From assembly GCA_026770585.1 (NCBI GenBank), contig MU646802.1:290082-313068 (forward strand): 22,987 nt of DNA. The letters run 5' to 3'. Of the stretch, positions 2,080 through 22,935 are shown in pieces. Source of the DNA: Baffinella frigidus (taxonomy: Eukaryota; Cryptophyceae; Cryptomonadales; Baffinellaceae). The notes under the pieces are model-generated. The model worked only from the letters and a program-made list of their open reading frames with translations. It had not been told where the DNA came from and did no database searches. The number at the start of each line of letters is the position of its first letter. Within the stretch, counting starts at the first letter, position 1. Both the position numbers and the translations under genes were made by a program.

Positions 2080-5000
2080 ATGGCGGAGGAGGATAGCGAT
2101 GCGCTCTTCGCGCTGACCAAGCGCGTGCGCGAGGCGGTCTCGCTCATCAACTCGCTCGACGAGGGGCGCCTCGCGGTGGTCGTCAAGCGACTCGCCCGCG
2201 CCGTGGGCGGCAGGTACGCAGAGAATGCTCGCCCCCACTATAGCGAGAGCTCCGAGCACCAGGGTGCCCCATCACGCAAAACCGTGGCGTTGAACCAACC
2301 AGCGGGGGCCTGGGGGTTCTGTGTTCGCTGGACGCGCTGGGCTCATGAGGGCTGGCTGCTGAACTCGGCGGGTGCACCCGCAGAGCTGGCCCGCCATTCA
2401 GCGAGGAGGAGCTGGAGCAGCTGCAGACGCGCCTGGAGCTGTCGTCCGCTGACCTCTCGACAGTCATTGAAGCGTGCTCCTTCTTCCTCGAGGTCCGCCC
2501 ACCAACCCTACCCCATCGTCGATTTTCACTTCTCGGATTCACCTGGGCAGACTAGACCCCCTTTTTCGGGGCGTCTGCCCAGTTCAATTCGAGATCTCGA
2601 AATCGACGAGTTGGTTCTCCCGTGAGGGTTGGTGGCACTCTCGGAGGGGGGTAGTTGGCGGGACTGGGAACAGGGTGTGCGGACGCAAAGACAGACCCAC
2701 GAACGCTGGACTCCTTCAGACCCTTCCTCGAGAAACACAGCGTGCGCTTCCTCGATACATGCTACTGGGAGAAGATTCTCCCACTTGTCGCAACCTCACC
2801 CCCCCCCCCCCTTCTGCAGAAATCGGCGTACCACGTGATCAAGCCGCCTGACCTCTCTGCACATCTCCAAGCTGCCGGCTTCCTTCAATCCCACGTCCGA
2901 CCCCCCCTCCCCACACACGTGCAGCCTTCCAGCCCCCCCCCCCTCCCTGACCGCTAGCCGCTACACCCACCCTCGGGAGGGAACCCCGACTCTGGGAGGG
3001 GAACTCCGGACGACAGGCAGTAGTACTCTTATCTCAGAAAAGGAGTTCTAAAACTCGTTTTCTTGAGTCAATTCCCCTTCAAATATGTCAACGTATTCTT
3101 TTCTCTACGCATAAGTCAACAGATTTGAAGGGGACTTGACTTAAGAAAACGAGTTTTAGAACTCCTTTTGTGAGATAAAAATGCTCTGTTGCGCCGGAGG
3201 CACCGCTGTGCATGCTAGCTCTGTCTCAGGCTATTTGGGCTCGCCAATTTGGTGAGTACGACCTCTTTTCCGCTCAAATGTTGATAGATCTTCCCCGCGA
3301 ACCCAGCGCGTCAATTTGAGAACAGTCGGTCAACCCGAGTGAGGCTAGGCCCCCCTCCCCCCGCGCATTCGAATGAGTGCTGCGAGGGGGGGGGGGCGAC
3401 TGGGGATCACCTAGCTCTGCCTGAGTTGTATTCTGGCTCGTCCTGAAGGCTGTCTATTCGTCCTTTTGTACTGGATTTCTGCTCTTACATACTTTGAAGG
3501 GCGGGCCAGAACAAAACTCAGACAGGACTAGGAAGCGTGGTGAAAGGCACCTTGCGCGGTTTGGCGTTGAGCGTTTAGGTTTTACGGTGCAGGGTGTAGA
3601 ATTTGGACGTTGGGGTTCTACGGTTGAGCTCAATCCCCGAACACCGAAGCCTAACCGCCAATGCGTTGTATCAGGCGCGGGCGTTGGCGGATGTGTGGGA
3701 GGCTGAGGCGCCGGCCCTTCTCAGGTCACCCCTCCTTTAGGGTTCACGGTTTAGGGCTTAGGGCCTAGGGCCTAGGGCTTAGGGCTTAGGGCTTAGGGCT
3801 TAGGGTTTACCCGCGCCGTGCGCCCCCCCAACATGCCGCCTTCTAAGCGCGGAGCAGCCATTCTCACACCCCGCACCTTCTGTACGATACGCCAGAGGTT
3901 ATGAGCCCTGTGTTCCTGGTTTCTGGCGCCCGAGGCGGTACCTAGCGCGCCCCTCGCGCCGCCATGCTCTCAACGCCGGAGAACAGGCACGTAACGCGAC
4001 TCCTGGTGACGCGCACTTAAACCCTGCACCCTGCACCCTCCACCCTGAATCCCAGATCCTAAACCCTGCAACCTACACCCTAAACTCTAGACCCTCAACC
4101 CCAAATCCTAAACCCCTAACTCCAAACCCCAAACCCTAAACCCTAAATCCCAAACCCCAAACCCCTAAACTGGGAGGTTGCGGGAACAAGCTCCTTGGTG
4201 GGGGGGTCCTCTCAAACGGCGGGGCGCAGACACGTGAAATGACTCCTGGTGACGCGCATGTAAAGCGACTCCTGGTGACGCGTTGAACCCTAAACCCTGA
4301 ACCCAAAACGCTGAACCAGGCGGTTGCGGGAAGGGTCATCAGTGGGGGGCGCGGAGCGGCTGCTGGGGATCGACTGGCGGCTCCACCTCCACGCCGCATC
4401 CTCCGCGGTGCCTTCCCCACGAGGCGGATCAAACACCCTTTTTAAAACCCGGGGAGCTGTACACGTGAGGCAGTGTGTAGTAATTTTCATATGGCCCTCC
4501 CGCTTTTCGAGCGGACACGTGACCAACTCCGTACGAAATACCTACAATCGATATTTTAAAAGGGCGCGGGGCGGCTCCTGGGGGTTGACTGGTGGCTTCA
4601 CCTTCACGCCGCATCCTCCGCGGTACCACCAGCAACCCGAAACAGCTTATTTCGGGTCTGGGAGCTTCGGATGTTCATTTCGTAGAGCCCTACGGTAGGA
4701 CATCCCTAGGTATCTAGGGCTGAGCGGCTGCTGGGGATCGACTGGCGGCTGCACCTCCACGCCGCATCCTCCGCGGTACACCCTAAACCCTGAAACCTGA
4801 ACCCAAAACCCTGAAACCTGAACCCCGAACCCGAAACCCGAAATCCGAAACCCGAAACTCTAAAACTTAAACGTTACACCCTAAACCCTAACTAACCCCG
4901 AAACCCGAAACACGAAGCGCTGAACATTAAACCCGAAATCCTGAACAATAAACGACTGCGGAGTGACGATGAAAGGTGGAACCTTCCCCGCTTGCGTATG

Positions 5001-7710: not shown

Positions 7711-8184
7711 CCCGCGCTCGTAGGACTGTGTAAAGTCACTCCGGCTATTCCTAAATGGAGCGTGGAGGCGGATGCGACGCTTAAGAGGGTGAGGGCTGCT
7801 GCGGGCTGGACCTAGTGGAGCGAGGGTGCTCCAACGGCGCTCCAATGGCGCGTGTCACGCCAATAAACAGCATATATACACGACGTGTGTATCCTTCAAG
7901 TACCGAGCGAGTTAGGGCGATTGATCGCCCTAGACCGAATGAAGATTTGTTCGCGCTCTTGAGGGGCCTAACGCAGTCTGAGGCGGGCATATGAGATACA
8001 CTGATTCATTCGCAATGCACGACGTGTGCACACGTCACCGCTTACGCCACCCAGGTTGCGGGGTTTTGATGAATGAAGTTGGTTCATTCGCATGATACAC
8101 GACATACAGACAGTGCCTAGGCCCCCCAACTAGAAGGGGGTTGCTGGATAAAGTTGATTAATTCGCAACACACCCCGCCACCGC
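7711..8184. other. Convergent intergenic region between COMMD10 and VPS36
   Basis: The stops are 474 bp apart, facing each other. A plus-strand AATAAA at 7862-7867 could serve COMMD10 (about 150 nt past the stop). A 26-nt block around ACGCCACCCAGGTTGCGGGG at 8038-8063 repeats the last codons of VPS36 exon 13 (8181-8206), i.e. another exon-end copy, here in the 3' flank. A CCTTCAAG element fragment lies near 7890. Confidence 0.6.
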
Positions 8185-11100
8185 TTACGCCACCCAGGTT
8201 GCGGGGGGTGTTTGAATAAAGTTGGGGAAGAAGCGGAGGCCTTCGATGGAGTCATCGCGGCAGATCTCCCCGTCCGATTCTGACTTCTCCAGAAGATCCC
8301 GCGAGACCCGCATCGTGTATCCTAGCGCCTGTGCGGTGCACGGTGTGTGAGAGGGAGTGGGTGCGAGAGAGAGAGAAAGAGAGAGAGAGAGAGGGAGGGA
8401 GGGAGGGAGGGAGAGAGAGAGAAATGGGGAGGGAGGGAGAGACAGAGAGAAAGAGGCGTGGTTCGTTGCGGTTTAGCAGTGCCGCCCGCGGTGCAGGGGT
8501 TACTCGTAATTAAGGAGGAGCGCGAGCCCCCTCGACTCTCAAGCCTCCAAGCGGTATGGCATAGTGGCAGTGGGCAGTGGGCCGCGGGGAAGCGGGCAGG
8601 AGCAGACCTGTGAGAGGTGAGCCGCCGTGCCGCCCCCCGGGATGGTGGAGAGGAGCACCCGGGGTAGAGGAGAGGAGTCGAGGGGGCATGCGAGCCCCCT
8701 CGACTGGCAAGCCTTCAAGCGGTATGCCATGGTGGCAGTGGGCAGTGGGAGACCTGGGATAGGTGGGCTGCCGTGACGCCAGCCGGGGTGCAGGAGAGGA
8801 GCAGTGGGGAGAAGGGGGGGCGAGGAGAAGAGGAGCAGTGGGGAGGAGATCTGGGAGAGGTGCGCCGCCGTGCCGCCCCCCAGCGAGGAGGAGAGGCTCA
8901 GTGGGGGTCAGACCTGGGATAGGTGCGCAGCCGTGACACCAGCCGGGGTGGAGGAGAGGAGCTGTTGGAGCGCGTCGCTGGCTGTGTCGCCCATGGCTTT
9001 CTCCGACTGTACCACTAGAACCTGCACCCCCGCGCATTGTGTGAGAAGGGACCCTAGGACGGGCCTCGTGTGGAAATACATCATCAACGTGTTCACAACA
9101 TGTGCACACATTGCTGCCACGTTGCAGCAACGGGTGCGCTGGCTGTGTCGCCCATGGCTTTCTCCGACTGCACCACTAGCACCTGCCACCGTGATTCCCG
9201 GAGAAGATTAAGAATACACGATTTGTGATTCCCAGAGAGGCGTGGATTCACTTCCGGAAATCAGGTTGCTGCATCGTGCATCCATCAACACATCGTGTAT
9301 CCATAAACTACTCTGTCACTCACAAATCGTGTATCCGTGAAGTTCGAGGGGCCGTTTGAACTGATAGGAGGGGGTGAGGGCCGCACGGTGGGCTTCGAAG
9401 GTTTCGGGACCCCTAGATTCAACGGTAACGTGTCCAAGTTTGCATTACAAAATCCTTCAAGTTAACTGCCCACCGGGTAAGTTGACTTTTCATGAAAGGT
9501 CCGTAGTCCACTGTGCGGGGGGGGAGGGGACCCCGGAGGCGAAGGCTTTGAGGCGGAGCGGCACGCCGCGCGGCTGGAACAGCTCACACGCTTTGTGCAG
9601 ATCCGCTGGCGAGACCTGCGGAGGGTATCAGGTTTAGGGATCCACTCGGTGGACTACGAGACTTTCGGTGACCCCGGATTCCGGGGTGTTACGTGACCAA
9701 TTTGCATCAGAAAAATCCTTCAAGTTAATCGTCTTCAGTTAAGTTGACTTTTGATGAAAGGTTCGTGGTCCACCGTGTGGTACGTGCTCTGTCACCGCCG
9801 CTGGCAGATTCGGAACAGTTCACACGCTTTCCGCAGATCCGCTGGCGGGACCTGCGAAGGGGCAATTCAGCTTTTGGTGTCAAGTTTAGGGTTTAGAGTG
9901 TAGGTGCTATGTCACCTCTGGCACGCCCTTGCGCCAGCCCTGATAGAGCACCGCACCTCCCAGCGCCCGCATAGGCGGGGCGGGGAGTATAAGGCGCGGT
10001 TACAGAGACAGTAAATATCTGTGAGCGTCATCATCGGACTGAGGTACCACTCAGCAGCCACCGGGGACTTCGGGAAACGGTCCATATAAACGATGCTGGT
10101 ACAAATCTTATCCGTTGCTGTGGATCCCAACCGGAATCTCGCCCGGAAATCCGAGCGAAAAGGACCACGGTGCCTGCTAAGTGGTACCAGCGAATCATGG
10201 ATGTAGGGGTGGGGGACCATGTCGATGCCGCGGGCGCGGTTGTACAGACAGTAAATATCCGTGAGCGTCATCATCTTCAGCCCGCCTGTGCTTGTCCCCC
10301 CTTTCCCGTCCGGCTGCCCCCTGAGAAGAGGAGCGGTTTAGGGTTTAGGGTTCAGGGTTCAGGGTTTAGGGAGGGTAGGTACTCGAGGAACGGGAGGAGG
10401 TGGTCAGCAACCACCAACCAACCCTCACGGGAGAAGCAAATCCATTGATCTCGACCTGTTCCCAAAAGTTGATAATGTACCAAGATTTTGTCAACTTAAG
10501 ACCAGACACCCCAGATCTGGGGTGTCTGCAAGGTGAATTTGAGGTCTGACAATCGACGATTTGGTCTTTCCGTGAGGGTTGGTGGTAGTTGGTAGTTCCA
10601 CCAACTCTCACGGAAAGACCAAATCGTCGATTGCCAGACCTCAAATTCACCTTGCAGACACCCCAGATCTGGGGTGTCTGGTCTTAAGTTGACAAAATCT
10701 TGGGACATTATCAACTTTGACCGGGCGCGTGACCGCTCCAAAGTTAACGAATCTGTACCGTACACCCAGCATGACAACTTGAGAACAGTCCACCAACCCG
10801 AGTGAGGCAGAGCTAGAGTGTGGCGGGGGGTCACTTGAGGATCGGCAGGAGGCTGCCCGGAGAGCTCCGCGTTTAGGGTTCGGAGTTTAGGGATCAGGGT
10901 TTACAAAGCGTGGACGTGAGCGTAAACCCAATGTTTTGGGGGGGAAGGCCACTGTCAGCCTCGAGTGGTGTGGCTGCCTCTGTACCGAGGCGGGCCCGTC
11001 TTACGGCTCATTGACTTTTGGATCACTCATCGCCTGGCTTAAAAGTAATCAAGTAGAAGAAGGAGAAGAAGGAGAAGCAGGAGAAGAAGGAGAAGAATGA

Positions 11101-14100
11101 GGAGTGTGGTGGGGTTTATCTCACAGAATGTATTTGTTGATTGGTTTTAGAAAGTCAGCTCACCCACAAAATCGTTAACTTATTGTTTACTGTTACAAAA
11201 CTTATTGTTTACTGCTACAAATTAAAATATCAAGTTGACGATTTTGTGGGCGAGTTAACTTTCCAAAACCAGTTAATGAATATATTGTGTGAGATAAGGG
11301 TGGTACTCGAGGATCGGGAGGAGAAAGTCAGTCAGCCCTCTCCCGCTCCAAAGTTGTCAAATTTGTACCGCAAACCCAGCATGTCAACTTACGAATAGTC
11401 AGCGAACCCGACCGAGACAGAGCTAGAGTGTGGCGGGTAGGTGACTCGAGGATGGGGAGGAGGAAGTTGGCAAGCTGCCTGGAGAGCTCCGTGTTCAGGG
11501 TTCGGCGTTAACTCGGGCGCTGCTACGTGTGGGTTGCCTCAACTCAAGGCTCAAGGGCCTCGTTCAGGACCTGTATCAAGAGCAAGAAAGAAAGAAGGAA
11601 GGAGAAGTGTGGGTTGGGGGGTCACTCGAGGATCGGGAGGAGGAAATCAGCAAGTGTCGAATCAAGAGTCGCGGCATGTTGGTTTCGATACGTAACGAAA
11701 GCACTTTTTTCTCGCGGGAGTGTGGCGGGGTGGTACTCGAGGATGGGGAGGAGGAAGTCAGCCAGCTGCCCGGAGAGCTCCGCGTGGAACAGGTCCGCCC
11801 CCGCCACCTCCTTCGATACGGGACTGCCGCAATTCACGGCCAGAGTCAGGGGGGGGGGGTAACAGCACTTCAGCCGTCACCTTCTAGCTCTGGATCAGTC
11901 TACAGGTCCGACCCCACCACTTCCTTCGACACGGGACTGCCGCAATGCATACCCAGAGTCAGGCAAAACATACCCCCATCCGCCATCTTCTAGCTCCGGT
12001 TCAGTCTTGAGAATAGTCGGTCAGCCCGAGTGCCGAACAGGTCCGCCCCCGCCACCTCCTTCGATACCGGACTTCCGCAATGCTACCCAGAGTCAGAAAC
12101 AGTTTTTGATCCACCTCATCCGCCACGACTCCTCGAATTCTCCGGAGAATTCACGGGGCTGGCACCCACCTCATCAGAATGAAGTTTATGTGAAGCCCAT
12201 AACAGCGCGAAATCCCAGGTGTTACACGGCCGGGGACAGGGTCAGAGGGATGCAAGCTAGCTTTACAAAGACCCCCGCTGGATGTACACAGGGATCACCA
12301 CGGGCCATTTCATGTCTCTTCGCCATCACCGCTCCCACCTCATCCGACACCCTCGAGAAACTCCTCGAATTCTGAGTGACTCGCGTGGTGCAGTTCTGTA
12401 CTCCCTAGGGGTACTCCCTAGGCCCCTGGTGCCTATTCCTTAAGTGGCGGACGGGCGATTAATCGCCCTAACTCGCCCTAGGCAGGTCCTAGGGCCCTAC
12501 CGTAGGGCGTATGCGCCTACTCGCCACGTACGGGATAAGAGACGCGGCCCTGAGGCCTGCCGTATGATTGTTACCCTGCCATGGAGGAGTTGTATCATCT
12601 CCGCATCCAGGGGGGTCTGGCATTGAACAGGAGAGGGGAGGTTGGTTGCCTGGCGGCGAGAGTCGACAGCCGGCAAGGTCCACTTATGACCACTAAGTGG
12701 ACCTCGCAGATTGTCCACTCTCAGGCGGCGACGTTGCCCACTCACAACACAACGGGGAACGTTCCTAAAGTGAAGTAGTGTATTGTTTCTTAGGAAACAC
12801 GCCAAAAATCAGCATTGGTTGGTCACGTTATCCCCGGATATCCGGGGAAGATGTGACTGGTAGCCTGTTGAGTGGAGAGGGCCCGAGAGGCACGGGAGGC
12901 GAGACCTGACGATGCCAGGGTTGCGCAGAAGCTGCGCTTACTCCCCATGCACCCCCAGGTTCTCTCGCTCGCTATCTCTCTCTCGCGCGCTCTCTCTCTC
13001 GCTCTCTCTCGCTCCCTCTCTCTTTCTCTCTCTCTCTCGCGTGCTCTCTCTCTCTCGTTCTCTCTCGCTCTCTCTCTCTCTCTCTATCTATCTCTCTCGC
13101 GCGCTCTCTCTCTCGCTCTCTCTCTCTCGCGCTCTCTCTCTCTCACTATCTCTCTCTCTCTCGCTCTCGCGCTCACCTGACGATGCCAGTGTTGAGCAGC
13201 AGCTGGGCATACTCCCCCTGCACCCCCTTCTCCCCACCCTCTCGAGCGGCACCCTTCGCCTCCTCATCAGCCTGCGCCCAAAATTAACACCACACGTAAA
13301 TTTCTGATGCAGGCCATGTTTGAATTTATTTGATACTATCACGTCAGGCTGCGCCCAAAATTAACACCAGACCTGAATTTCAGATCAAGGCAGGTGTTAA
13401 TTTATGTGGTGCAATCACTGCTTCGCGCACGCGCCTGAGCCGCACAGAGCCTAGCGCGGTCTCTGTGAATTTGGGCTCCACCAATTTGGTGAGCCCGGGC
13501 GCTATTCCGCTCCAAAGTTGACGAATTTGTACCGCAGACCCAGCATGTCAACTTGAGCATAGTTGGTCAACCCGAGTGAGGCAGCGCTAGAGAGCCAGTC
13601 GCGTGTGACGCCCTCCAGCGCGCCACTCATTCCAGCCACGCAACCGACCACGTTTCCCGCACAACCCGAGATGGGTTTGTTATTTCCTACGGAGGATGTT
13701 CTCGAGATATAGAGGCATCGCAAGAAAGGAGAGGGCGCGCGAGAAGCGTCTAGCCGACGAGCATCCCCCATTAGTAACCGGAGAAATCGGAAAAGAAGGA
13801 GAGGACTAGCAACCAGTAGGCGATTCATGCAATGTCGACCATCTCTAGGTAAATCAGAAACCCTAAACCCTAAACCCTAGACCCTTAACCCTCAACCAGT
13901 AACGCTAAACGCTCAACCCGAAATCCTAAGCCATAACCCCTAAACAATCACACAAATCCTAAGCCAGAACCCCTAAACAATCACACAAATCCTAAGCCAG
14001 AACCCCTAAACCCTCAAAGCAAGGAGGCGAGACCAGAAGGCGCTTCATGCATTCAGCAATGTCGACCATCTCGCTCTAAACATAAACCCTAAACCCTAAA

Positions 14101-17100
14101 CCCTAAGAGCAAGGAGTCTGAATTCTTCCCCGATTGACTTGACAAGTGATTTTACCGCGGCCGAACATTCTCTCTTCGAACCGATTGAATTTCGATTGCA
14201 GGTTTTCCGTTTCTCGGGCAATCGTACGAGATCTCGCCCGAAATCAGGCAGCCTGCGGCGCAAAACGCCAGATAAAAACACTTGTAAAGTCAATCGGGAA
14301 GAAACGGTTTCTTCCCGAGTTGGGAGCTGTAGAACCGCTCCCAACTCGGGAAGAAACCATTACGTTACACGCCCTGAGAGCCTAGCCTAGGTACCCACAC
14401 GGAGGCGACACCTGGAGGCGCTGCATGCGTTCGGCCATCTCGCGCGCGTGCAGCCAACGTCAACTCTGGTACAAAATCGAAAAGTCGAACCTTGAAAAGT
14501 CCGTGTGCAGTATTGTAAGATCTTGGGGGTTCACATTCGTTCCAGGAATTGACGTGGTGGCTTTGGAAAGGGGTCCAGGGCTGAACCCTTTCCCAATTAG
14601 TCCGGCGGCATCACAAGCAGAGGAGAGGAGAGGGGAACAGGAGGCGCTTCATGCGTTCGGCAATGTCAACCATCTCCCTCTGAACCCTAAACCCTAAACC
14701 CTAAACCCTAAACCCTAAACCCTAAACCCTAAACCCTAAACCCTAAACCCTAAACCCTAAACCCTGAACCCTAGACCCTTAACCATACCCTAAACCCTAA
14801 ACCCCAAATCTTCAGAGCAAGGAGTAGGTAGGGACCAGGAGGCGCTTCATGCGTTCAGCAATGTCGACCATCTCGCTCTAAACCTTAAATCCTAAACCCA
14901 ATTCATCGTAATCCTTTCAATACCTTCTTTTCTCAGAACCACTCTGAGATAAGAACAAGGAGAGGAGTAGAGAGGAGTGAAGACCAGGAGGCGCTTCATG
15001 CGTTCAGCAATGTCAACCATCTCGCGCGCGTGCAGCATCAGCCCATCCAAATCGCCCAGCGCGGTCCCTGCATTGCGGAATCAGGGTTTTGTGTTGACGC
15101 GGCAACGTTCCCTCCATGCGTGAGTATCAACCCGTCCAAATCGCCCAGCGCCGTCCCTGCCAACGTTCCCTCAAAGTTAGTCCCGGACCGCAAATGATTA
15201 TATTTTGCAAGGCGCCGTGTAAAGGATTTCTGGCACAAACCCGTGGAGCATCAGTCCGTCCAGCTACTGGAAAGCCCGAGGGGAAGTGTCAAAAAGTAGC
15301 GGACACTCTGGTGTCCGCTACTTTGGAGCCATTTTCACCTGAAAAGGCAATTTCTGCCCCAGGATATGACCAAAAATCGTCAAAAGGCAACAATAGTGTC
15401 GTGTCCAGAGAAATTGAGACTTCCCCTGTGGCTTTGCAGTAGAGGTCGGCCAGCGCGGTCCCTGTGAGGCAGAGAGGTTGTCAACAGTTGGAGGACACCT
15501 CGCAGTAGGCGGTGTTAACCCTTGGAGAACAAGCTCTGGTCGCTACGTGGCAACGACCCCTCCAAGAGGGTTCTGAATTCTCAAGGACCGGAGGCATCCC
15601 TGTGTTGGAGCTGCGTGCGGGGTTGAGGATTTAGGATTTGGGGATTAGGGTGTAAAGTGTAGGGTTTAGGGTGTAGGATTTAGGGTTAAGGGTTTACGGT
15701 TTAGGGTTTAGGGTTTAGGATTTAGGGTTTAGGGTTTAGGGTTTAGGGTTCAGGGTTCAGGGTTCAGGGTTTAGGGTTTAGGGGTTGGGGTTTGGGGTTG
15801 AGGGAGACGGACCCATGGTTTGGCCGGTGGACTTCTCGCGCTGTTCGCGCATGTCCATCAACGCCGCCATCCCCGATCGCCCCGACTGCTTTCAGGTTGG
15901 CATTGAGGGAGTGTAGGGGGTGTAGGAGGTTAAGGGTGTATGGTTTATGGTTTATAGTGTGATCACCGCCGCCATCCCCGATCGCGCGGACTGCTTTCGG
16001 ATTTGGGGTTCGGGGAGTTAAGGGTTTGATTACCGCCGCCGTTCAGGAAAGTCCCGACTGCTTTAGGGTTTGGTGTTTAGGGGGTTTATGGGGTTTAGGG
16101 GGATTAGGGTTTGGGGTTTGGGGTTTAGGGTATAGGGTTTAGGGTTTCGGATGTAGGGTTTAGGGTTTATGGTTTGATCGCCACCACCATCCTGGAACGC
16201 CCCGACTGCCCGTTCCTCAGTAGGTCACTTTGCAGCAAGGATGATATCAAACACAATCATTACCAAGCACAACACAATATCAAATACATCCTGTGCAGTT
16301 CGAGAGCCTCGAATGGTTCAGGGTTTATGGTTTAGGGGGTTCAGGGTTTAGGGTTAGGTGGTTTGATCGCCGCCGCCATCCCGGAAAGCCCCGAATGGTT
16401 TAGAGTTTAGGGTTTAGGGGGGTTAGGGTGTAGGGTTGAGGGTTCAGGGATTGATCACCGCTGCCATCCCGGAACGCTCCGACTGCGCGTTTCGCCAAGT
16501 CAATTTGCAAGCAGGGTGGTTCGTTCTTATCAAATACAGCATATGAAGGTTTCTCTTTTCTCCAATAACGCATAGGGAGGTTTCTCGTTTCTACGCGTCA
16601 ATTTGAAGGGTGGCACGTTCATATCAAACACAGCATGTGGAGGTAGAGAGTCAGCGTGGAGAGCGTGCGGTTGCAGACGAGAGTGGCCGTAGCTAGTGCG
16701 GGTGGGGGGAGGGGGGGTGGGGGGGAGGAGGGGGGGGGGCACCGGTGGTGGCGCGGCCGCCGCCGCAACAGTCGGGTTCGCTGAGAGTCGATCCTTACGC
16801 TCCCATGCCTTCCCTGCAACCGGCAGGAGCAGCACTCTTCACCACACCGGGTCCGCGGGACGGAAACCATGCAACACGCGCCGCGAATGTCGTAATTCGA
16901 CCACAGTGGTGCGCTGCCGCGAACCAGTTGGAGATCCTTGTGAACTTTTGCAATCTCTACGACGGAGATTTTAATCTTAAAACGACTCGGATGGTGCGTT
17001 TATAAATACTTGTTAAACGCATTCTGCTACCCTCTTGCCATAAAACACAATTAGAGAAGAACCCCCGTACAAAATAACAATTAAAATGAGGTTAAAAGGG

Positions 17101-19113
17101 GCACGGGCGAGCCAGGGTTTCTTCCCCAAAATCGATTCAGAGTAGCTGGGGACAGGCAGGCAGGATGTCCCATGAGTACACCGGCGCGCCAACGTTCATC
17201 GGCGCGATGCACACGCTCAACAAGGAGGCGACACGCGCCGGCCAGAAGCTTTCTTCCGATGACACCTTCCGTGGTTGCATTCCCTGCAAGCAGCAGGAGC
17301 AACACGCTTGGCCAGATCGGGTCCACAAGACAGAACCCGTTCAACACGAGCCGCGGATTTCATGATTCGAATTGCATAATTCGACCCACCACAGTGGTGC
17401 GCTGCCGCGAACCAATTACTTTCGTCTCATACAATTATAACCCAACTTCATCTCCATCGTCTCCTAGGAAGCGTGTAAGGTGTCATGGGACTACTCTTTG
17501 GAGCTAAATTACTCCGCCAAACTTTTCTGGTTGAATCCCTGACACCGTTTTGAAGAGCGTGGTCCCAGCTTTTCTAGGTCATTTTCACAAGCGAGCTTAA
17601 CAATTTTGGTTTGGGAAATAGCCGACCTCAAATATTGCGTTTTTCGCTGATGTTAAATAAATCGGGACACATTTACTACACGACATCCTTGGTACAAATC
17701 TTCGACTTGACGACAGAGAGTTGCTCGAATCATTGCATACTGAGATAATTTTAGGCAACTGCTTCGAACATAGAACGTGATGGGAGCATCGGTTTTCAAA
17801 CGCTGACATAGCCTTTTTTATGTCATGGTAGGTGCATAGCATGATATAAAATCGTGCAGTAAATGTGTCCCGAATGATTGAGCAGTCCTGAATGGAGCGA
17901 TTCCGGGAAATGTTGGCCACTTTTCGGGTTGCTGGTTCGACGGTTTGCTCCTTTCATTTGTTCCAGAATTCTCGAAACGGTGCGTTTTGAAACGGCGTAA
18001 AACCTTTTTTATTATTCAAATGAAGTCAGCAAACCGTCACACCAGCAACCGAAAAGCGGCCATCATTTCCCAGAATCGCTCTTATCTCACATGCTTCCTA
18101 GCATCAAAATCTTAGAGAGGAAATCATTAGACCCACCACAGCCGCGAAGGCTGCCCCCCCCGGGCGGGAAGTCTAGCTCTGCCTCACTCGGGCTGACTGC
18201 CTATTCTCAAGTTGACACGCTGGGTGTGCGGTACAAATCAGCTCAACTTGAGCGCGAAAAAAAATCACGGGCTCGCCAAATTGGCGACATCAAATCAGCG
18301 TGAGACAGAGCTGGGAAGTGCGGCGGCGCTTCGCACCAGCAATGGCGGCGGTGAGCGCCTTGAGGAACTCGTTCTTCCCCCCCTTTGGAAACCCGATGGT
18401 CACGTACGAGCGCTGGTCCCCCGCCAGCTCCAGCCGCAGCTTCGGCGTCTTCATGAACCCCGACTTGTCCGTCACCTGCTCAGGACGCGCGCGGGGATCA
18501 GGCGCCGTCCCCTGCTGCACCAAGAGGCTCCCTGGACAGGCGCGCGGCGGGACTGCGAGTTGCCTTCCCCGGGGCGACGGTTGGCTGGCGCGTCAGGAGC
18601 ATCGCGTGCAGGAGAGGTTGGGGTTGAGAGAGACCGCGCTGACAAGCTCGAGCGACGCCGCGAGGCGGATGTTGTTGTTCTCAGCCGCCCACAGCACCCG
18701 GTGCGTCGTCAAGGTCGCCACGCACGGGTCATACACCTGCGGATCGTGGAGATCGGCGCTTCATCAGTGGCCTCGGTGTACGCCCTGTCTCGTTATTTGG
18801 CGGAAGGGGGGTTTGCAACCAGTGTTGCGAGAGTTGCGTCAGTCAGAGCTGACCCGAGTGGTTACCTTGTCGTCGCGGTTGTAGAAGCGCGTCGCAGGGT
18901 CCATCCGCACCTGCCGTTGGTTGAGTGCGGAGGTGAATATCACGCAGATTCCAACCGAGTCATGTGCACCGCGGGTTGGAAGGAAGGAGGGCGATGCAAG
19001 CCCCACTCTTTCACAGACTCCTGGGTCTCGGCGGGCACACACACCTCCACTTCGTTCGGATCGAGGATCGGGCGCCCGCCGCCCGAAACCTCCACCTGGC
19101 CGAGGAACTCCAT
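8185..19113 (-). CDS. VPS36: VPS36 / EAP45, ESCRT-II subunit (complete, 13 exons, 390 aa)
   Basis: VPS36 is the ESCRT-II subunit that binds phosphoinositide and ubiquitin through its GLUE domain on endosomes and links to ESCRT-I/III. Minus-strand exons: 19113-19045, 18910-18866, 18736-18635, 18475-18337, 16813-16743, 15885-15813, 15067-14985, 13271-13177, 11823-11737, 10290-10218, 9615-9532, 9021-8914, 8328-8185. Phases 0,0,0,1,0,1,0,2,2,0,0,0 give 1,173 nt ending TAA; human VPS36 is 386 aa. GLUE is about 1-125: FYNRDDKVYD, LTTHRVLW (47-54), TIGFPKGGKNEFLKAL, KAWERK (120-125). A helical linker follows (AREMVDIAERM), then the EAP30/winged-helix region: SPVSKEV, MMTLTDIYCLYNRARG (261-276), SPADL...PLRLKAFASG, VLVVQ, CRDDSIEGLRFFPN (366-379). 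No NZF zinc finger is present, unlike yeast. The start gives FLGQVEV as the natural N-terminus. The exon 10 acceptor (ACAAG) is weak but demanded by phase. Introns hold the truncated exon copies and mobile elements listed separately. Confidence 0.94.
8366..8452. repeat. GA/GGGA microsatellite
   Basis: VPS36 intron 12, about 40 nt upstream of exon 13 in the gene sense. Read on the minus strand it is a long CT tract, i.e. pyrimidine-rich ahead of the acceptor. Confidence 0.9.
8529..8896 (-). pseudogene. Tandem truncated copies of VPS36 exon 12 3' end
   Basis: Three copies of the end of exon 12 (TPAGVTAAHLSQ region plus donor) lie at 8851-8896, 8754-8802 and 8608-8656 on the minus strand, downstream of the real exon. 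Two keep a GTCT donor; the one at 8851 has AT in place of GT. A shared intron block (AAGCGGTATGGCATAGTGGC type) repeats at 8529-8581 and 8696-8748. This looks like a decayed tandem array of an exon-end/intron-start unit. Confidence 0.8.
9135..9183 (-). pseudogene. Truncated copy of VPS36 exon 12 5' end
   Basis: Minus strand: acceptor GGTGGCAG, then codons for VLVVQSEKAMGDTAS, breaking off in the exon. It is 115-160 bp upstream (gene sense) of the real exon at 9021-8914. It has an acceptor but no donor. Confidence 0.85.
9185..9380. other. Part of VPS36 intron 11 with short dispersed repeats
   Basis: No gene seen. CACGATTTGTGATTCCC and ATCGTGTATCC recur several times, in both orientations. Confidence 0.5.
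9381..9519. mobile_element. MITE-like element, CCACACGGTGGACTAC family (139 bp)
   Basis: The ends CCGCACGGTGGGCTTCGAAGG and CCTTTCATGAAAAGTC-side GGTCCGTAGTCCACTGTGCGG are inverted. It lies in VPS36 intron 11, ending about 11 nt from the exon 11 donor (9531-9530). It is the same length as the copy at 9642-9780. Confidence 0.8.
9642..9780. mobile_element. MITE-like element, CCACACGGTGGACTAC family (139 bp), second copy
   Basis: The left end CCACTCGGTGGACTACGAGA pairs with the right end TTCGTGGTCCACCGTGTGG. It lies in VPS36 intron 10, about 26 bp from exon 11. The two copies therefore flank exon 11 on both sides in the same orientation. Confidence 0.82.
9808..9851 (-). pseudogene. Truncated copy of VPS36 exon 11 5' end
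   Basis: Minus strand: acceptor TTCGCAG, then VPPADLRKACELFR, then breaks off into unrelated sequence with a stop. The real exon (9615-9532) reads VSPADLHKACELFQ. It has an acceptor but no donor. Confidence 0.85.
9997..10036 (-). pseudogene. Truncated copy of VPS36 exon 10
   Basis: Minus strand: MMTLTDIYCLCNRA, then TTATACTCC in place of RGIDM and the donor. It is separated from the real exon by an inverted-repeat element (10041-10190). It retains neither splice site, so it is a relic. Confidence 0.8.
10041..10190. mobile_element. MITE-like element between exon 10 and its truncated copy
   Basis: The left arm GAGGTACCACTCAGCAGCCACCG pairs with CGGTGCCTGCTAAGTGGTACCAG. The duplicated exon segments on both sides share about 40 bp. 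Confidence 0.7.
10336..10372 (+). repeat. Telomere-like tract, TTTAGGG sense
   Basis: Four to five TTTAGGG/TTCAGGG units, 40 nt upstream of VPS36 exon 10 in the gene sense (CCCTAAA on the coding strand). Minor tracts of the same kind are at 9885-9902 and 10869-10903. Confidence 0.85.
10465..10718. repeat. Near-perfect 254-bp palindrome
   Basis: Arms of about 121 nt (10465-10585 and 10598-10718) with only a handful of mismatches around a 12-nt spacer. Each arm has an inner palindrome CAGACACCCCAGATCTGGGG. The arm junction at the centre carries the CCACCAACCCTCACGG end seen at 2499-2635, so this may be two family members joined end to end. It lies in VPS36 intron 9. A further end fragment is at 10405-10430. 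Confidence 0.88.
11055..11100. repeat. GAAGGA microsatellite
   Basis: AGAAGGAGA units in VPS36 intron 9. Pyrimidine-rich on the gene's strand. Confidence 0.85.
11116..11297. mobile_element. MITE-like element, TTATCTCA family (second copy)
   Basis: 182 bp. The left arm TTATCTCACAGAATGTATT... includes GGTTTTAGAAAGTCAGCTC and CACAAAATCGTTAACTT; the right arm is its inverse, ending TTGTGTGAGATAA. An internal duplicated TTATTGTTTACTG sits at the centre. Confidence 0.8.
11900..12076 (-). pseudogene. Two truncated copies of VPS36 exon 9 5' end
   Basis: At about 11903-11940 and 12041-12076 the minus strand repeats the acceptor (GCGGCAG or GCGGAAG) and the first codons, PVSKEVVGSDL and a diverged version, then breaks off. 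Both include the CTGACTCTGGGT intron block that precedes the real exon 9 (11823-11737). Confidence 0.8.
12433..12538. mobile_element. Inverted-repeat element related to the CTATCCCTCAAGTGGC family
   Basis: TATTCCTTAAGTGGCG at one end, CGCCACGTACGGGATA at the other. The core is rich in GCGATTAATCGCC and CCTAGGGCCCTA, shared with 7203-7320. It lies in VPS36 intron 8. Confidence 0.65.
12911..12956 (-). pseudogene. Truncated copy of VPS36 exon 8 3' end
   Basis: The minus strand resembles the end of exon 8 (codons for GEYAQLLLNTGIV plus AG|GT), diverged to GSKRSFCATLASS in its own frame. The donor is GTCTCG. It is separated from the real exon by the CT-rich microsatellite. Confidence 0.8.
12958..13172. 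repeat. 215-bp CT-rich microsatellite next to the VPS36 exon 8 donor
   Basis: CTCTCTCG/CTCTCGCG units. On the gene strand this is a GA-rich tract starting about 4 nt after the exon 8 donor. It lies exactly between exon 8 and its truncated copy. Leu/Ser-rich open frames here are artefacts. Confidence 0.92.
13274..13402. repeat. Direct repeat of the VPS36 exon 8 acceptor region
   Basis: The CTGCGCCCAAAATTAACACC block adjoining exon 8 (from 13272) recurs at about 13352. The second copy holds the acceptor CAG but only a stub of exon. GGTGTTAAT at 13394 is inverted to it, giving a short hairpin at 13361-13402. Confidence 0.6.
13451..13592. mobile_element. MITE-like element, CTAGCTCTG family (copy 5)
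   Basis: 142 bp, VPS36 intron 7. It starts CTAGCGCGGTCTC and ends GAGTGAGGCAGCGCTAG. The interior has GGGCTCCACCAATTTGGTGAG and CAGCATGTCAACTTGAG. Same subfamily as 3215-3348 and 18173-18312. Confidence 0.75.
13856..14105 (+). repeat. Telomere-like tracts, CCCTAAA sense
   Basis: Degenerate units at 13856-14013 and 14077-14105. The 13950-14010 part repeats ACAATCACACAAATCCTAAG in tandem. They lie between exon 7 copies. Confidence 0.85.
14122..14358. mobile_element. Inverted-repeat element followed by a perfect hairpin
   Basis: TTCTTCCCCGATTGACTTGACAAGTG (from 14122) is inverted at CACTTGTAAAGTCAATCGGGAAGAA (to about 14304). Adjoining it, 14306-14358 is a hairpin of CCCGAGTTGGGAGC with its exact inverse around a short loop. 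Both are in VPS36 intron 7. Confidence 0.75.
14683..14815 (+). repeat. Best telomere-like array, about 11 perfect CCCTAAA units
   Basis: 14685-14764 is an uninterrupted CCCTAAA array, then degenerate units to 14815. It directly joins a truncated VPS36 exon 7 copy at 14677. A small tract at 14877-14902 joins the next copy in the same way. Confidence 0.95.
15126..15470 (-). pseudogene. Two truncated copies of VPS36 exon 7 5' end
   Basis: At about 15126-15160 the minus strand has GGCAG|GGACGGCGCTGG giving TALGDLDGLILTHGG. At about 15446-15466 it has TCACAG|GGACCGCGCTGG giving TALADLYC. Both keep the acceptor and break inside the exon. They are upstream of the real exon in the gene sense. Confidence 0.85.
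15266..15440. mobile_element. Inverted-repeat element with an internal perfect hairpin
   Basis: ACTGGAAAGCCCGAGGGGAAG pairs with CTTCCCCTGTGGCTTTGCAGT. Inside, AAAGTAGCGGACAC (15293-15306) pairs exactly with GTGTCCGCTACTTT (15311-15324). VPS36 intron 6, abutting a truncated exon 7 copy. Confidence 0.75.
15627..15802 (+). repeat. Telomere-like tract, TTTAGGG sense
   Basis: Starts about 11 nt from the VPS36 exon 6 donor and fills much of intron 6 (CCCTAAA on the coding strand). Mostly TTTAGGG with GTGTAGGG and TTCAGGG variants. Confidence 0.9.
15905..16480 (-). pseudogene. Five truncated copies of VPS36 exon 6 5' end among TTTAGGG repeats
   Basis: Minus strand, VPS36 intron 5. Copies at about 15962-15995, 16030-16062, 16183-16210, 16366-16397 and 16448-16480 repeat the exon 6 acceptor and start (SGRSGMAA, then V/I instead of LMDM). 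Four of the five keep a recognisable CAG; the one at 16366 reads ATTCGGGGC. All then break into CCCTAAA-type sequence. TTTAGGG tracts separate them (15905-15960, 16000-16030, 16065-16172, 16317-16360, 16399-16445). Confidence 0.88.
16807..17415. repeat. Direct repeats bracketing the inserted promoter-exon copy
   Basis: 16807-16924 (start of VPS36 exon 5, its acceptor and adjoining intron) recurs, diverged, at 17277-17415. Shared blocks include TTCCCTGCAA, GCAGGAGCA and ACCACAGTGGTGCGCTGCCG. The duplicated VPS36 boundary lies on both sides of the ANTH promoter/exon 1 copy at 16929-17276, as expected if the insertion was made with a duplication. Confidence 0.8.
16929..17276 (+). pseudogene. Truncated copy of the divergent promoter and ANTH exon 1 start, inside VPS36 intron 4
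   Basis: 16929-17164 matches 19169-19398 (promoter, 5' UTR) and 17165-17276 matches the first 112 nt of ANTH exon 1 with three substitutions, all changing the residue (S12I, K17T, V22A). After the codons for DDTFRG the frame enters the copied VPS36 exon 5 border and stops 29 codons later (at 17365). A 5'-truncated ANTH gene relic on the strand opposite to VPS36; a transcript would be antisense to VPS36 intron 4. Confidence 0.85.
17661..18071. mobile_element. Two adjacent inverted-repeat elements in VPS36 intron 4
   Basis: 17661-17875: the arm CGGGACACATTTACTACACGA pairs with TCGTGCAGTAAATGTGTCCCG. 17895-18071: GAGCGATTCCGGGAAATG...GCTGGTTCGACGGTTTGCT pairs with AGCAAACCGTCACACCAGC...CATTTCCCAGAATCGCTC (about 54-nt arms). 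The region is AT-rich relative to the exons; no coding potential is evident. 17416-17660 shows nothing else recognisable. Confidence 0.75.
18173..18312. mobile_element. MITE-like element, CTAGCTCTG family, with 7-bp flanking repeat
   Basis: Starts CTAGCTCTGCCTCACTCGGG, ends TGAGACAGAGCT. GGGAAGT lies immediately outside both ends (18166-18172 and 18313-18319), a candidate target-site duplication. It lies about 23 bp from the VPS36 exon 4 donor. Confidence 0.82.
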
Positions 19114-19398
19114 GGCTCGATGCCCAACGTCTGGCTGCGAGGAAGGCAGGAAGGCTACCAAAGAGATTGAAGATCCTTGCGAACTTTTAAAATCTCTACG
19201 ACGGAGATTTTAATCTTAAAACGACTCATTTTGTACGTGTATAATACTTGTTAAACGCATTCTGGTACCATCTTGCTATAAAACACATTTAGAGAAGAAA
19301 CCCGGTACCAAATTACAAGTAGGATGTAAAAAGGGGTCCGGGCGAGCCGGGGTTCTTTCCCCAAAATCGACTGACTTAGCAGGGGACAGGTGGGCAGG
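19114..19398. promoter_or_regulatory. Divergent promoter between VPS36 and the ANTH gene
   Basis: 285 bp separate the two start codons. AAAATCTC and GAGATTTT form an inverted repeat with a 7-nt spacer at about 19188-19210; a TATAA occurs near 19238. Much of it (from 19169) is duplicated at 16929-17164, where the inverted repeat is partly broken. Confidence 0.55.
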
Positions 19399-22300
19399 AT
19401 GTCCCATGAGTACACCGGCGCGCCAACGTTCAGCGGCGCGATGCACAAGCTCAACAAGGAGGTGACACGCGCCGGCCAGAAGCTTTCTTCCGATGACACC
19501 TTCCGTGGTTTCATGGATAAGGCTCAAGGCGCGATGGCTTTCGAGCCTCTGAAGAAGGCTGTGGTCAAGGCGACGTCGCTCGAGCACGGGCCGCCAAAGG
19601 AGAAGCACGTGCAGTTCCTGATGCACGAGATGCGCGACGCCAACATCCGGGACATCTTCGAGGAGGTCTTTCTGCGCCTCCACAACAAGGACGCTACAAT
19701 CGTCCTCAAATCGATCATGGTGTTCCATCGCCTCCTCGGCGGCGCCCCGCCATCCTACAAGCTCTTCGACCGCATCTATGCGTCCCGCGGGGAGTTTCGC
19801 CTATCGCGCTTCCTCGACGAAACCACCCACGAGAGCATGCAGGTCCTCCCACGCCCGCCGCTGCAATCTTTTCAACTCGGATTAAATTGGAGAGGTGCAG
19901 AGCCAGGGGGTAACGCGATGCACCATCTGGGCGGCATCCGAGTACCCTCCAGGGTTCAACGGCACGTGCGGCCAGCATAGACACCCCATCCCGCGCCGCG
20001 GGTCTTGCATCACCCGCTGTGCTCCTCCTTTTGCTCTTTCCTCCATTTTCGGCAGCCACTTGTGGATCCTGGCCAGACAGGGGAACCGAGGAGGTTGGGT
20101 TTGCTGGGATGAGTGCCAGTGACGCCTCTCTTGACCCGCACAATCAAGGAGGCGGCACCAACCCGGTCCCTCGCTCTCCTCTCGCCGCAGTCCTCTTCCC
20201 GACTGTTGCACGCCCCCGCGACCCATCGCCTCGACGCGACCCATGCCCTCGAATGGTGGCGCGAGCATCTCGCAGCAAGCTCACGATGCTCCCCCGGCAG
20301 GCGAGCCGGATGGTGCAGAGCTACGCGATGTTCATGGAGGAGAAGATCGAGATGCACCACGACGTGCGCTTCCCGTACGAGCGCAACACCGAGGACGCCG
20401 CCCGCCACGTCGCCGATGTCTGCCCCTCTCATCAACACACTTGCACAATCCTGGTGCAAAACACTGCCTCACACGCTTCTCGTGCATAAGGAACACTCAC
20501 GACTCCAAGAGACACGCCGCTGAGGTGCCACCAGCCCTGGGAGGTGGCTCAAATAGTGCCCTGGGACGTTTTTTCGATTTGCCTTGACAGCTTCCCGTAC
20601 GAGAGGAACACTGATGACGTCATCAGTGGCGGCCCGCAACGTCGCCGATGTCTGCCACCCTCATCCGGGAAAAGGTTTAATTTAAAATAAAATGGCCTAT
20701 CAAACCGGATTCTGGCCCTGATTAAATTTACTTAGGGCCCTAATTAACCTTCGTCTAACTCCTATGAACACATAGGGATCCATTTTATTTGAAATTAAAC
20801 CTGTCCCAAATCTGTCCCCGTGGTACAAGAGGGCCTCAGCGAAAATAAATAGATTCTTATGAAGCGCCCTCTGCGAGTGTCTGTACTACGGTATGTCCTG
20901 GAGCTGATAGGAGCGCGTCTCTTCGTAGGATCCCGCGCGGGCCTACCGTGGTCAATCCTGTATGGGTCGGGGAGAAGCTGTCGAGCTCTGAGGGGGTGGG
21001 CAGAGAGAGTCACGCCATATGTGTTATAAAGCCTCTATATATATTATGAAGAGAGATGCAGGCTGACGTCGCGTGGGGACAGAGGGGGGGGGGGCGGGGG
21101 GGCTGTGGGGGGGTGCTTTCGTCGGTCCAAAGGGTGTGGTAGGTGGAGTTAGCGCGACTAAGACGAAGAAGCTAGCTCTGTCTGAGTAAAATTAGGCTCG
21201 CCATAATTGTATTTTAGTTACGTTCTAGATTTCTTGTCTAAATGTATTTCATGGCGAGCCCAGTTTTACTCCGGCAGAGCTAGGAAGCGGCTGGTGGTGA
21301 CGCAGTGTGGGTTTGTCGGGTGGGGACGGTGCGTGGGTTCGTCGGGTACTGACGGTGTTTTCTTTCATCGGGTACTGACGGTGTTTTCTTTCTTGGATCG
21401 CAGATCAGCCCGGAGCAGCTGATGCAGGACGTGAAGAGCATCATGTCGCTCCTCGACGTCGGCTACAAGTGCTCCTTCCGCGAGGTCTGTCCATTCGCCC
21501 ATCGCCTCCTCTCACCCCCCCCCCAACACGCGCTGCCCGCGTGCGCACGCTCTTCGCGGACAGGGTGGTGTGGCGCGTGTGTGATATGTGCGATGGGTAA
21601 CCTCAGCCTCCGCTGGGGTGCCAACACGTAGCCTGGTTCAAGTGAGAGGTTCCCGTGAGCAAGCGGCAGGGGGGGGGGGGGCGTGAGCTCCCGTGCAAGG
21701 ACGCGTGCGAAGCGGGGAGCGCGACGTGGTGGGCGGAGCTGACAGGAGGCGATGGGAGGGCGAAAACATATTTAATTCCATGATTGACAAATGTTTGATT
21801 TCGGAATTGAATGATGATGCAGGTGAGCGTGAGATGGGAGGGTGGAAAATGATAATTTTAAAATTGATTGATGGTGCACGTGAGCGCTAAACCCTGAAGC
21901 CTGAACCCTTGACCCTGAAGCAGGTGAGCACGGTGCACCCCACGAGCATCGCGGCGTTCTCGCTCATCTTCAAGGACATGCGCATCCTCTACCACGCCCT
22001 CAACAAGGTCGGCCCTAAACCCTAACTCCAAAACTCTGACCACCACAACCCTAATTACTCATCTTCAAGGACATGCGCATCCTTTACCACGCCCTCAACA
22101 AGGTCAACCCTAAACCCTAACCCTGCCACTCAAACCCTAAACCCTTAACCACTAAAACCCTAACCCTGAACCAACCCCCTTAATCCTAAACCCCAACTCC
22201 TAAACCCGCAACGCTAAACCCTACACCCTAAACCCTCAACCCCAAACCCCAAACCCCGAACCCCAAACCCCAAACCCCCAAACCCCAAACCCCAAGCCCC

Positions 22301-22437
22301 AAACCCCAAACCCCAACCCCCAAACCCGATACGCGCAGGGGGTGCTGCGGCTGCTGGAGAACTACTTCGAGATGCCGAAGATGGTGGCCTCGAAGATCCT
22401 CGCGCTTTACAAAAACTTCCTCGACCACGCCAAGAAG
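19399..22437 (+). CDS. ANTH-domain clathrin adaptor (AP180/CALM-like), 5' part, 5 exons, runs off the window
   Basis: Adaptors of this family bind PtdIns(4,5)P2 and clathrin/SNAREs at the plasma membrane and promote coated-vesicle formation. Exons: 19399-19842, 20301-20417, 21404-21484, 21924-22007, 22339-22437; all introns phase 0; 275 codons so far. The lipid-binding motif K-x9-K-x-K-H is intact: KATSLEHGPPKEKH, residues 57-70. Later ANTH helices are recognisable: FLMHEMRDANIRDIFEEV, VLKSIMVFHRLL, SYAMFMEEKIE (exon 2), LMQDVKSIMSLLD (exon 3), AFSLIFKDMRILYHALN (exon 4), VLRLLENYFEMPKMVASKIL (exon 5). The ATG is set by the conserved start; an in-frame GTG three codons upstream is not needed. 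The exon 4 acceptor is a tandem AAGCAG. The C-terminal clathrin-binding tail must lie beyond the window; no further exon is seen in 22438-22987. Confidence 0.93.
20591..20649 (+). pseudogene. Frameshifted copy of ANTH exon 2 3' end with both splice signals
   Basis: FPYERNTDD is followed by about 8 extra nt (around TGACGTCATCA), then the ARNVAD equivalent and the donor GTCTGCC, identical in its first seven bases to the true exon 2 donor. A pyrimidine-rich stretch ending TTGACAG directly precedes it. The insertion breaks the frame. Confidence 0.8.
20667..20806. mobile_element. MITE-like inverted-repeat element, AT-rich
   Basis: ANTH intron 2, 18 bp after the exon 2 relic. GGGAAAAGGTTTAATTTAAA pairs with TTTGAAATTAAACCTGTCCC; AAAATGG/CCATTTT continues the arm. 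Confidence 0.8.
21172..21283. mobile_element. MITE-like element, CTAGCTCTG family, long arms
   Basis: 112 bp in ANTH intron 2. CTAGCTCTGTCTGAGTAAAA and GGCTCGCCAT pair with ATGGCGAGCC and TTTTACTCCGGCAGAGCTAG. The neighbouring 21084-21117 is a G-rich run. 20830-21080 shows nothing recognisable. Confidence 0.82.
21886..22325 (+). repeat. Telomere-like tracts around ANTH exon 4 and up to exon 5
   Basis: CCCTAAA/CCCTGAA units fill 21886-21920 (up to the exon 4 acceptor), 22010-22056 (from 3 nt past the exon 4 donor) and 22106-22325 (drifting to CCCCAAA, up to the exon 5 acceptor). Both splice sites of exon 4 and the acceptor of exon 5 are embedded in such sequence. Confidence 0.9.
22058..22102 (+). 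pseudogene. Copy of the last 45 nt of ANTH exon 4 with donor
   Basis: 15 codons (LIFKDMRILYHALNK) repeat 21963-22007 exactly except for one silent C-to-T change, followed by GTCAACCCTAAACC versus GTCGGCCCTAAACC. The period is 95 bp. No AG lies just upstream, so it has a donor only. Confidence 0.92.

Positions 22438-22904: not shown

Positions 22905-22935
<31 letters not shown>

Follow-up and report, generated by a model that had tools for sequence, protein, structure and literature searches.

We analyzed a 22,987-nucleotide (nt) stretch of the genome of the cryptophyte Baffinella frigidus (contig MU646802.1, positions 290,082-313,068, of a 382-Mb assembly), in which exons of three genes are accompanied by partial copies of themselves. 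This whole stretch is called the window, and coordinates refer to it unless another locus is named. The genes were rebuilt from the sequence: COMMD10 has seven exons on the plus strand (exon 4 was placed by eye only), VPS36 has 13 exons on the minus strand, and five exons were seen of a gene on the plus strand that encodes an ANTH protein. The proteins obtained by joining the exons matched the COMM, EAP30/Vps36, and ANTH models of Pfam above the cut-off. All 13 VPS36 exons are present whole in the annotated B. frigidus VPS36 protein; 11 of the 13 exon peptides matched it exactly over their full length, and the peptides of exons 4 and 6 did so over all but one residue.

Comparing the window with itself revealed numerous local direct repeats. 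Using the exons with their 80-nt flanks as queries against the window, we found 33 copies of exon sequence at E ≤ 0.01, all of them direct, while a stricter setting gave 31 copies from 12 of the 25 exons and none that was inverted. Under the stricter setting, all 18 copies spanning a donor site lie downstream of their exon and all 10 copies spanning an acceptor site lie upstream; two copies are internal to the exon and one has both borders. A previous reading of the sequence alone (the sequence-only reading) had named COMMD10 exon 5, VPS36 exons 6 to 13, and ANTH exons 1, 2, and 4 as having extra local copies, with donor-side copies downstream and acceptor-side copies upstream. Each named exon indeed has a copy in the window, and under the stricter setting the rule on sides held for every copy that spans a splice site. 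That reading had also described most copies as keeping one junction and breaking off inside the exon; the two copies of COMMD10 exon 5 comprise nearly the whole exon.

COMMD10 exon 5 (4345..4407, plus strand, placed by the COMM domain model and the copy search) is one of three near-complete copies, the others being at 4562..4627 (87.9% identity) and 4719..4777 (96.6%) on the same strand; since both are nearly whole, the spliced one among the three is not distinguishable from the sequence. The VPS36 exons discussed here were placed by the gene model and the annotated protein (exon 10 by the latter), their copies were identified by the copy search, and all are on the minus strand. Exon 6 (15813..15888) has four acceptor-side copies (15962..16024, 16034-16127, 16371-16443, and 16454-16486). 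Exon 7 (14985..15067) has five donor-side copies (14833..14876 with 97.7% identity, 14623-14676, 14410-14454, 14022-14074, and 13799-13845) and an acceptor-side copy at 15118..15160 (88.6%). A donor-side copy of exon 8 (13177..13271) is present at 12904..12956 (88.7%). Exon 9 (11737..11823) has acceptor-side copies at 12035..12096 (90.6%) and 11902-12007 and donor-side copies at 11426..11494 (88.4%), 11606-11654, 11298-11336, 10816-10872, and 10373-10408. Some copies of exons 7 and 9 resemble copies of copies because they have flanks in common with one another. Exon 11 (9532..9615) has an acceptor-side copy at 9812..9861 (90%), and exon 12 (8914..9021) has one at 9137..9186 (96%) together with donor-side copies at 8743..8808, 8820-8896, and 8603-8656. 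On the plus strand, ANTH exon 2 (20319..20417) has a donor-side copy at 20590..20665 (76.3%), and ANTH exon 4 (21924..22007) has one at 22058..22121 (95.3%), the two repeats being separated by a 31-nt spacer of other DNA; both exons were placed by the gene model and Pfam and their copies by the copy search.

Three copies depart from the pattern described in the sequence-only reading. The copy of VPS36 exon 10 (10218..10290) at 9993..10035 (90.7%) is internal and reaches neither border. The copy of VPS36 exon 13 (8185..8328, ending at the stop codon), located at 8033..8082, spans the end of the coding sequence instead of a splice site. The copy of ANTH exon 1 (19399..19842, plus strand, supported by the gene model and the ANTH Pfam model) was expected in the neighbouring intron; it is a 353-nt piece comprising the start of the exon and its 5' flank (16928..17280, plus strand, matching 19167-19514 with 87.8% identity), which the copy search placed 2.1 kb off, inside a VPS36 intron.

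The same pattern is present in proteasome and kinase genes of this genome, in agreement with the earlier suggestion of a process that extends beyond the window. Our survey, a small sample of conserved genes, covered 21 genes with 87 exons from the window and the proteasome and kinase loci, and 44 of these exons had copies (96 matches); outside the window, copies were present at 32 of 62 exons. The matches comprised 47 donor-side, 36 acceptor-side, and nine internal copies, one inverted copy, and only three near-complete copies with both borders. All 83 border-spanning copies of retained exons were on the side they kept (47/47 donor-side copies downstream, 36/36 acceptor-side copies upstream). 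Copies on both sides of one exon were observed 13 times, compared with 7.7 expected under independence (Fisher p=0.01). No copies were found in six of the 21 genes (those in loci L010, L011, L031, L034, L035, and L038). As a control for chance matches we ran these queries on loci belonging to other gene families, which gave 9 matches per 6.07 million query-bases; this corresponds to an expectation of about 0.64 matches in the 21 genes, against the 96 observed, and the exon copies were specific to their own exon. These results uphold the central claim of recurrent short, order-preserving duplications astride splice junctions that leave one intact exon and lengthen the introns.

The loci outside the window were stretches of at most 10 kb fetched with the Pfam models PF00227 (proteasome) and PF00069 (kinase); labels such as L010, L013, and L032 denote fetched loci, and coordinates after a label are positions in that stretch. 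From the 108 matches of the kinase search we took 13 stretches, mostly with several short matches close together, which constitute a non-random sample. Exons in these loci were predicted ab initio, using codon usage trained on the window exons and AG/GT borders, and combined with domain matches. On its own training window, the first version of the exon caller found 19 of the 25 known exons on the right strand and had both ends exact for seven of them; of the 26 predictions it made, 7 were false. A later version with lower thresholds was used for the other loci. Predicted exons that were on the opposite strand, outside the gene, or themselves copies were dropped before counting: L010 (6195, 8927, 9530), L011 (8805), L012 (2968), L013 (2059), L014 (5202), L030 (3106), L031 (2104), L034 (1852), L037 (1662, 2292), L039 (980, 1078, 1371), L040 (3027), and L041 (2773, 3076, 3258). 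Several of these have copies of their own. L001, L003, and L015 were excluded as genes, and the three of 87 exons longer than 300 nt were excluded from the analyses of divergence, overhang, and intron pieces. When 20 ten-kb stretches of the genome were sampled, 11 consisted entirely of N and four more largely of N, and our comparison therefore rests on chosen loci and not on a random sample of the genome.

We then considered how the copies are laid out. The 82 border-spanning pairs had a median aligned length of 58.5 nt, and the 21 youngest pairs (exon-part divergence ≤5%) had a median exon part of 41 nt and a median intron part of 19 nt. The repeats of a pair are usually separated. Another copy lies in the gap in six of the 21 youngest pairs, and the other 15 are nearest copies with a median gap of 77 nt (range 1-205). 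In 14 of the 15, other sequence of 31-205 nt separates the repeats, and adjoining repeats without a spacer, as in plain staggered-break duplication, were seen in one (gap ≤8 nt); among all pairs, the gap was ≤8 nt in 7 of 82. The simple short tandem duplications of the sequence-only reading are thus not what most young pairs look like. The DNA in the gaps varies from case to case and includes dispersed-repeat DNA, CT repeats, and telomere-like repeats.

Two ideas about the layout were pursued and given up. In VPS36 exons 7, 9, and 12, the upstream and downstream copy halves are nearly complementary, with 2, 1, and 7 nt missing, which raised the idea of a whole exon inserted into its own broken middle. 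Gaps of ≤3 nt were present in 4 of 13 exons compared with 2.5 after permutation (P=0.23), and the split-exon rule was abandoned as a general one, with one clean case (in L013) left. The second idea, cutting at the splice site or copying of mRNA, came from pairs with an overall identity of at least 88%, which had a median intron overhang of 6 nt and in 28 of 36 cases no significant similarity beyond the border. This short overhang is for the most part an artefact of ranking the pairs by overall identity, which the intron part lowers; sorting by exon divergence gave varied overhangs (in the 21 youngest pairs, ≤6 nt in six, 7-25 nt in seven, and >25 nt in eight).

To compare the divergence of the exon and intron parts, we used pairs aligned at least 12 nt into the intron, one pair for each of 29 exon sides, and excluded the six intron bases adjacent to the border. 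The two members of a pair differed at 94 of the 1269 exon positions compared and at 123 of the 840 intron positions, giving an intron:exon substitution ratio within pairs of 1.98 (bootstrap 95% 1.40-2.90); over all 46 pairs the ratio was 1.80. A free copy beside a constrained exon, set against two free intron sides, predicts a ratio of about 2, and the data hence fit copies that decay as if neutral. Selection or gene conversion keeping the copies alive is not needed with such a ratio. The differences fell on first, second, and third codon positions in 31, 20, and 70 cases, of 581 sites each; silent exon change and high third-position G+C would push differences toward third positions.

The sequence-only reading had proposed to count duplications at exon junctions against those elsewhere in introns. 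As controls we took intron pieces of the same lengths from the same genes, clear of exons and known copies. A direct copy was found for 42 of 84 exons and 204 of 830 intron pieces; at ≥88% identity and ≥35 nt, the counts were 23 of 84 and 28 of 830. Inverted copies were present for 1 of 84 exons and 86 of 830 intron pieces. Exons thus have the higher frequency of direct copies, 2- to 8-fold, but duplications confined to introns are common too: the direct pairs in 14 genes (≥70%, ≥30 nt) included 55 with an exon, 41 intron-only pairs, and 29 copies of copies. The aligned intron parts had 5.0 gaps per 100 nt and the exon parts 1.0, about a fivefold difference, and copies of a conserved exon are expected to remain identifiable roughly twice as long. 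The exon excess is real as counted and partly due to detection bias, and in view of these two effects a preference of the process for exons is unproven.

Recognisable copies in the 21 genes add up to 5,954 nt and the filler between repeats to 5,876 nt, compared with 43,820 nt of other intron; the copy figure includes intron flank and a few copies outside the gene limits, and small overlaps between the classes are still counted. Counting only such recognisable remains, copies and filler account for roughly one fifth of the intron sequence in our sample.

The window also contains repeats of other kinds. A near-perfect inverted repeat with 121-nt arms, 98% complementary and 12 nt apart, is located at 10465-10718 in the VPS36 intron between exons 9 and 10. 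Upstream of COMMD10, a 182-nt adjacent tandem duplication (1329-1510 and 1511-1706) has 80% identity. A dispersed family with a length of about 90-140 nt is represented at 3215-3345, 10721-10816, 11335-11425, 13451-13590, and 18173-18312, with core inverted repeats AAGTTGAC/GTCAACTT recognized by eye and similar stretches in L010, L012, L013, L014, L032, L035, L037, and L041; this family is probably a small non-autonomous transposable element. Degenerate telomere-like CCCTAAA/TTTAGGG arrays are found in introns at 4018-4170, 4780-4953, 13858-14018, 14683-14808, 15620-15804, 16062-16175, and 22106-22327. On the sense strand of the 21 genes, CCCTAAA-like heptamers are commoner than TTTAGGG (5.4 versus 0.9 per kb), perhaps because the heptamer can act as a branch point and pyrimidine tract. 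We rejected telomere-like repeats as the typical filler, as CCCTAAA-like heptamers occur at 2.2 per kb in fillers versus 5.4 in introns and TTTAGGG-like ones at 1.7 versus 0.9. At its end, the window has long poly-C runs (22904-22933 and 22959-22987), which may reflect sequencing or assembly trouble.

How do the copies arise? In the reading we prefer, in which our confidence is evenly balanced, they are neutral debris of break repair, left by staggered breaks across exon borders that were filled in and joined with filler. A staggered break, or nicks in opposite strands a few tens of nt apart, would open the DNA across an exon border, and fill-in of both ends would keep the stretch between the nicks on each side. 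The ends would then be joined with extra DNA in between, most simply added before joining. If the stretch spanned a donor site, the left end would retain the exon in full together with its donor, and the intron would acquire filler and a truncated exon with a donor; a stretch spanning an acceptor site would give the mirror image. An event within an exon would disrupt that exon and be removed by selection, and copies with a single splice site could be tolerated because the exon-definition machinery would pass over them. We infer the mechanism, this tolerance, and the selection against exon-opening events from the remains. The direct, ordered repeats expected from fill-in are what we observed (order preserved in 83/83 copies, 1/96 inverted): the constant side and orientation indicate that each event kept the local order of the DNA, as fill-in of staggered ends predicts, and the DNA between the repeats indicates that something was added. 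Small tandem duplications from the fill-in of staggered breaks are reportedly also the subject of Schiml (2016) and of Vaughn and Bennetzen (2014).

Several observations weigh against break repair with fill-in. Staggered-break repair classically yields adjacent repeats, so that the spacer DNA seen here needs an extra step. In the youngest pairs, the exon part is longer than the intron part (41 versus 19 nt, Wilcoxon p=0.02), a difference not predicted by a model of uniform breaks, although detection needed at least 12 exon nt. Detection bias does not clearly account for the whole of the 2- to 8-fold excess of exons over matched intron pieces. For the 18 exon sides whose exon divergence is ≤10%, a subset selected on that very value, the intron:exon ratio was 4.42 and not 2, and the concentration of differences at third codon positions is somewhat above that expected for a neutral copy and silent exon change. 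Finally, there were eight border-spanning matches on the wrong side among the dropped predicted exons, seven of them in three opposite-strand predictions in L041 and one in the prediction at 2292 in L037, which is itself a copy; we took these predictions to be false exons.

A possible alternative, though we think it unlikely, is that plain tandem duplications arose astride the borders by slippage or unequal exchange, and that insertions and deletions later rewrote their intron parts, often leaving only the exon half recognisable. Clean adjacent cases exist: around the exon at 7238-7292 in L013, 7124-7190 matches the adjacent 7192-7259 and 7261-7370 matches 7368-7480, so that the exon is composed of one repeat's end and another's beginning and both duplications meet within it, and the gap at the exon at 1978-2071 in L014 is 7 nt. 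The higher gap frequency of intron parts (5.0 versus 1.0 per 100 nt) is in line with such rewriting, as is the acceptor-side copy of VPS36 exon 7, which, if a 31-nt insertion is disregarded, has 12 nt of intron in common with the exon. The intron flank of the copy matches the exon's intron further out in 8 of the 28 short-overhang pairs but does not reappear in the other 20. Moreover, six of the seven youngest pairs (exon divergence ≤2.2%) are nearest copies with gaps of 70-169 nt, and insertions would be needed in nearly every young case.

It is also conceivable, if doubtful, that introns grow largely by a distinct kind of insertion, which duplicates 30-130 nt of the target, favours exon borders over the intron interior, and carries filler such as pieces of small inverted-repeat elements. 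This would be a break-and-insert activity that is so far uncharacterised and is linked to splice borders or transcription, and it would have helped to enlarge the genome to about six times that of Guillardia theta; PMC9756366 gives 534.5 Mb for Baffinella sp. CCMP2293, 6.1 times the G. theta genome.

Template switching during replication, microhomology-mediated and with short backward jumps that leave templated filler, would likewise yield direct, order-preserving repeats with filler between them. Among the gaps of young nearest pairs (≤8%), 10 of 23 resemble another stretch of their own locus, several of these being dispersed or simple repeats, but for 13 of 23 the sampled locus contains no similar stretch, and we regard this explanation as quite unlikely.

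We consider it improbable that small inverted-repeat transposable elements make the breaks or repeats by inserting near exon borders. Using a dispersed-repeat library built only from the sequence sampled here, we found repeat edges within 10 nt of 14 of 95 copies (2.8 +/- 1.7 expected). At a distance of up to 20 nt, such an edge accompanies 8 of 87 donors but only 2 of 87 acceptors, compared with 2.0% of randomly chosen intron points. Dispersed repeats account for 28% of filler nt versus 19% of other intron nt. Counted per filler there was no excess, with 15 of 49 having ≥30% repeat cover versus 13.9 +/- 3.1 in random intron pieces, and palindromic fillers were not clearly enriched (9/49 versus 26/245). 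A dispersed repeat fills the gap in L032, where it makes up all of the 70 nt between the two units of a 46-nt direct repeat (70/70 nt), and in one case in L037, where a 60-nt repeat surrounds 116 nt (116/116) of another; a second L037 case has an 84-nt repeat around 67 nt that are 85% dispersed repeat, mostly of the same family as in the L032 gap. By eye, the elements in L032 and L037 look truncated, and the flanking repeats vary (46, 60, and 84 nt), unlike the target-site duplications of known DNA transposons. Small dispersed elements may nevertheless supply breaks or filler in some cases.

Retention of the copies for a splicing function, as decoy or alternative splice sites, is very improbable: many copies keep AG or GT at the border and the differences are biased toward third positions, but the substitution ratio of about 2 fits neutral copies and, by eye, the annotated VPS36 protein has no additional segment that corresponds to a copy peptide. 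Assembly artefacts can hardly account for copies that differ from their exon by about 2-30%, mostly have other flanks, and occur at 44 of the 87 exons of 21 genes, on many contigs.

Long introns are usually attributed to transposable elements. In our sample, local duplication that recurs at exon borders and brings in filler can be credited with about one fifth of the intron sequence, and each event is datable from the decay of the copy relative to its own exon. A conserved exon beside a neutral copy is a built-in clock, and rates of intron growth could therefore be measured across the genome or between strains.

Lastly, we compared the pattern with known systems. The 'doublets' of Thomas (2004) are said to be short local paired repeats and are similar in this respect. 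The sequence-only reading knew of no named equivalent. This stands for cryptophytes insofar as the open-licence PMC literature held no report of exon-border copies in a cryptophyte among the matches listed (titles and abstract openings); it does not stand more widely, as related kinds of event are described in PMC4974935, PMC2671141, and PMC8355091. Introners (PMC9860276) resemble the copies as short repeated elements that alter the introns of many genes, but they create new introns, in some cases with target repeats of 3-9 bp, whereas here introns lengthen and the repeat is sequence of the host exon. We did not find the same element at many introns, ending at splice sites, as with introners; the gap DNA varies and the copies are exon-specific. 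In human repair-mediated duplications by proximal DNA capture (PMC2671141), linked copies of up to 619 bp lie near their source and 4 of 824 captured donors are partial exon/intron pieces. These are likewise local copies, some with partial exons and introns. DNA capture would be expected to leave microhomology, filler, or a small deletion at the insertion point; our repeats have DNA between them, which may or may not be such filler. However, one complete donor exon there was inverted and cases within 50 bp were excluded, while here 1 of 96 matches is inverted and the side is preserved; placement regardless of side or orientation, which capture allows, was not seen (83/83 on the kept side). In the potato RdRp gene, a tandem duplication across an intron-exon border created an intron (PMC4974935). 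The duplicated stretch spans the acceptor border and left exon sequence inside the intron, as in our loci, but it represents one duplication in one gene and a new intron, whereas here existing introns seem to grow in many genes. Intron gain by tandem duplication (the Rogers model) would place a new intron in what had been an exon; all 13 VPS36 exons are whole in the annotated protein. In mouse and human cells, fill-in of breaks with protruding ends gives small tandem duplications (PMC8355091), which share with the B. frigidus copies the short direct repeats and the preserved order; theirs are understood as adjacent, while here about 30-200 nt separate most young pairs, and half of the sampled exons are affected. 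Hence, the kind of event is known, and its density at exon borders is unusual.

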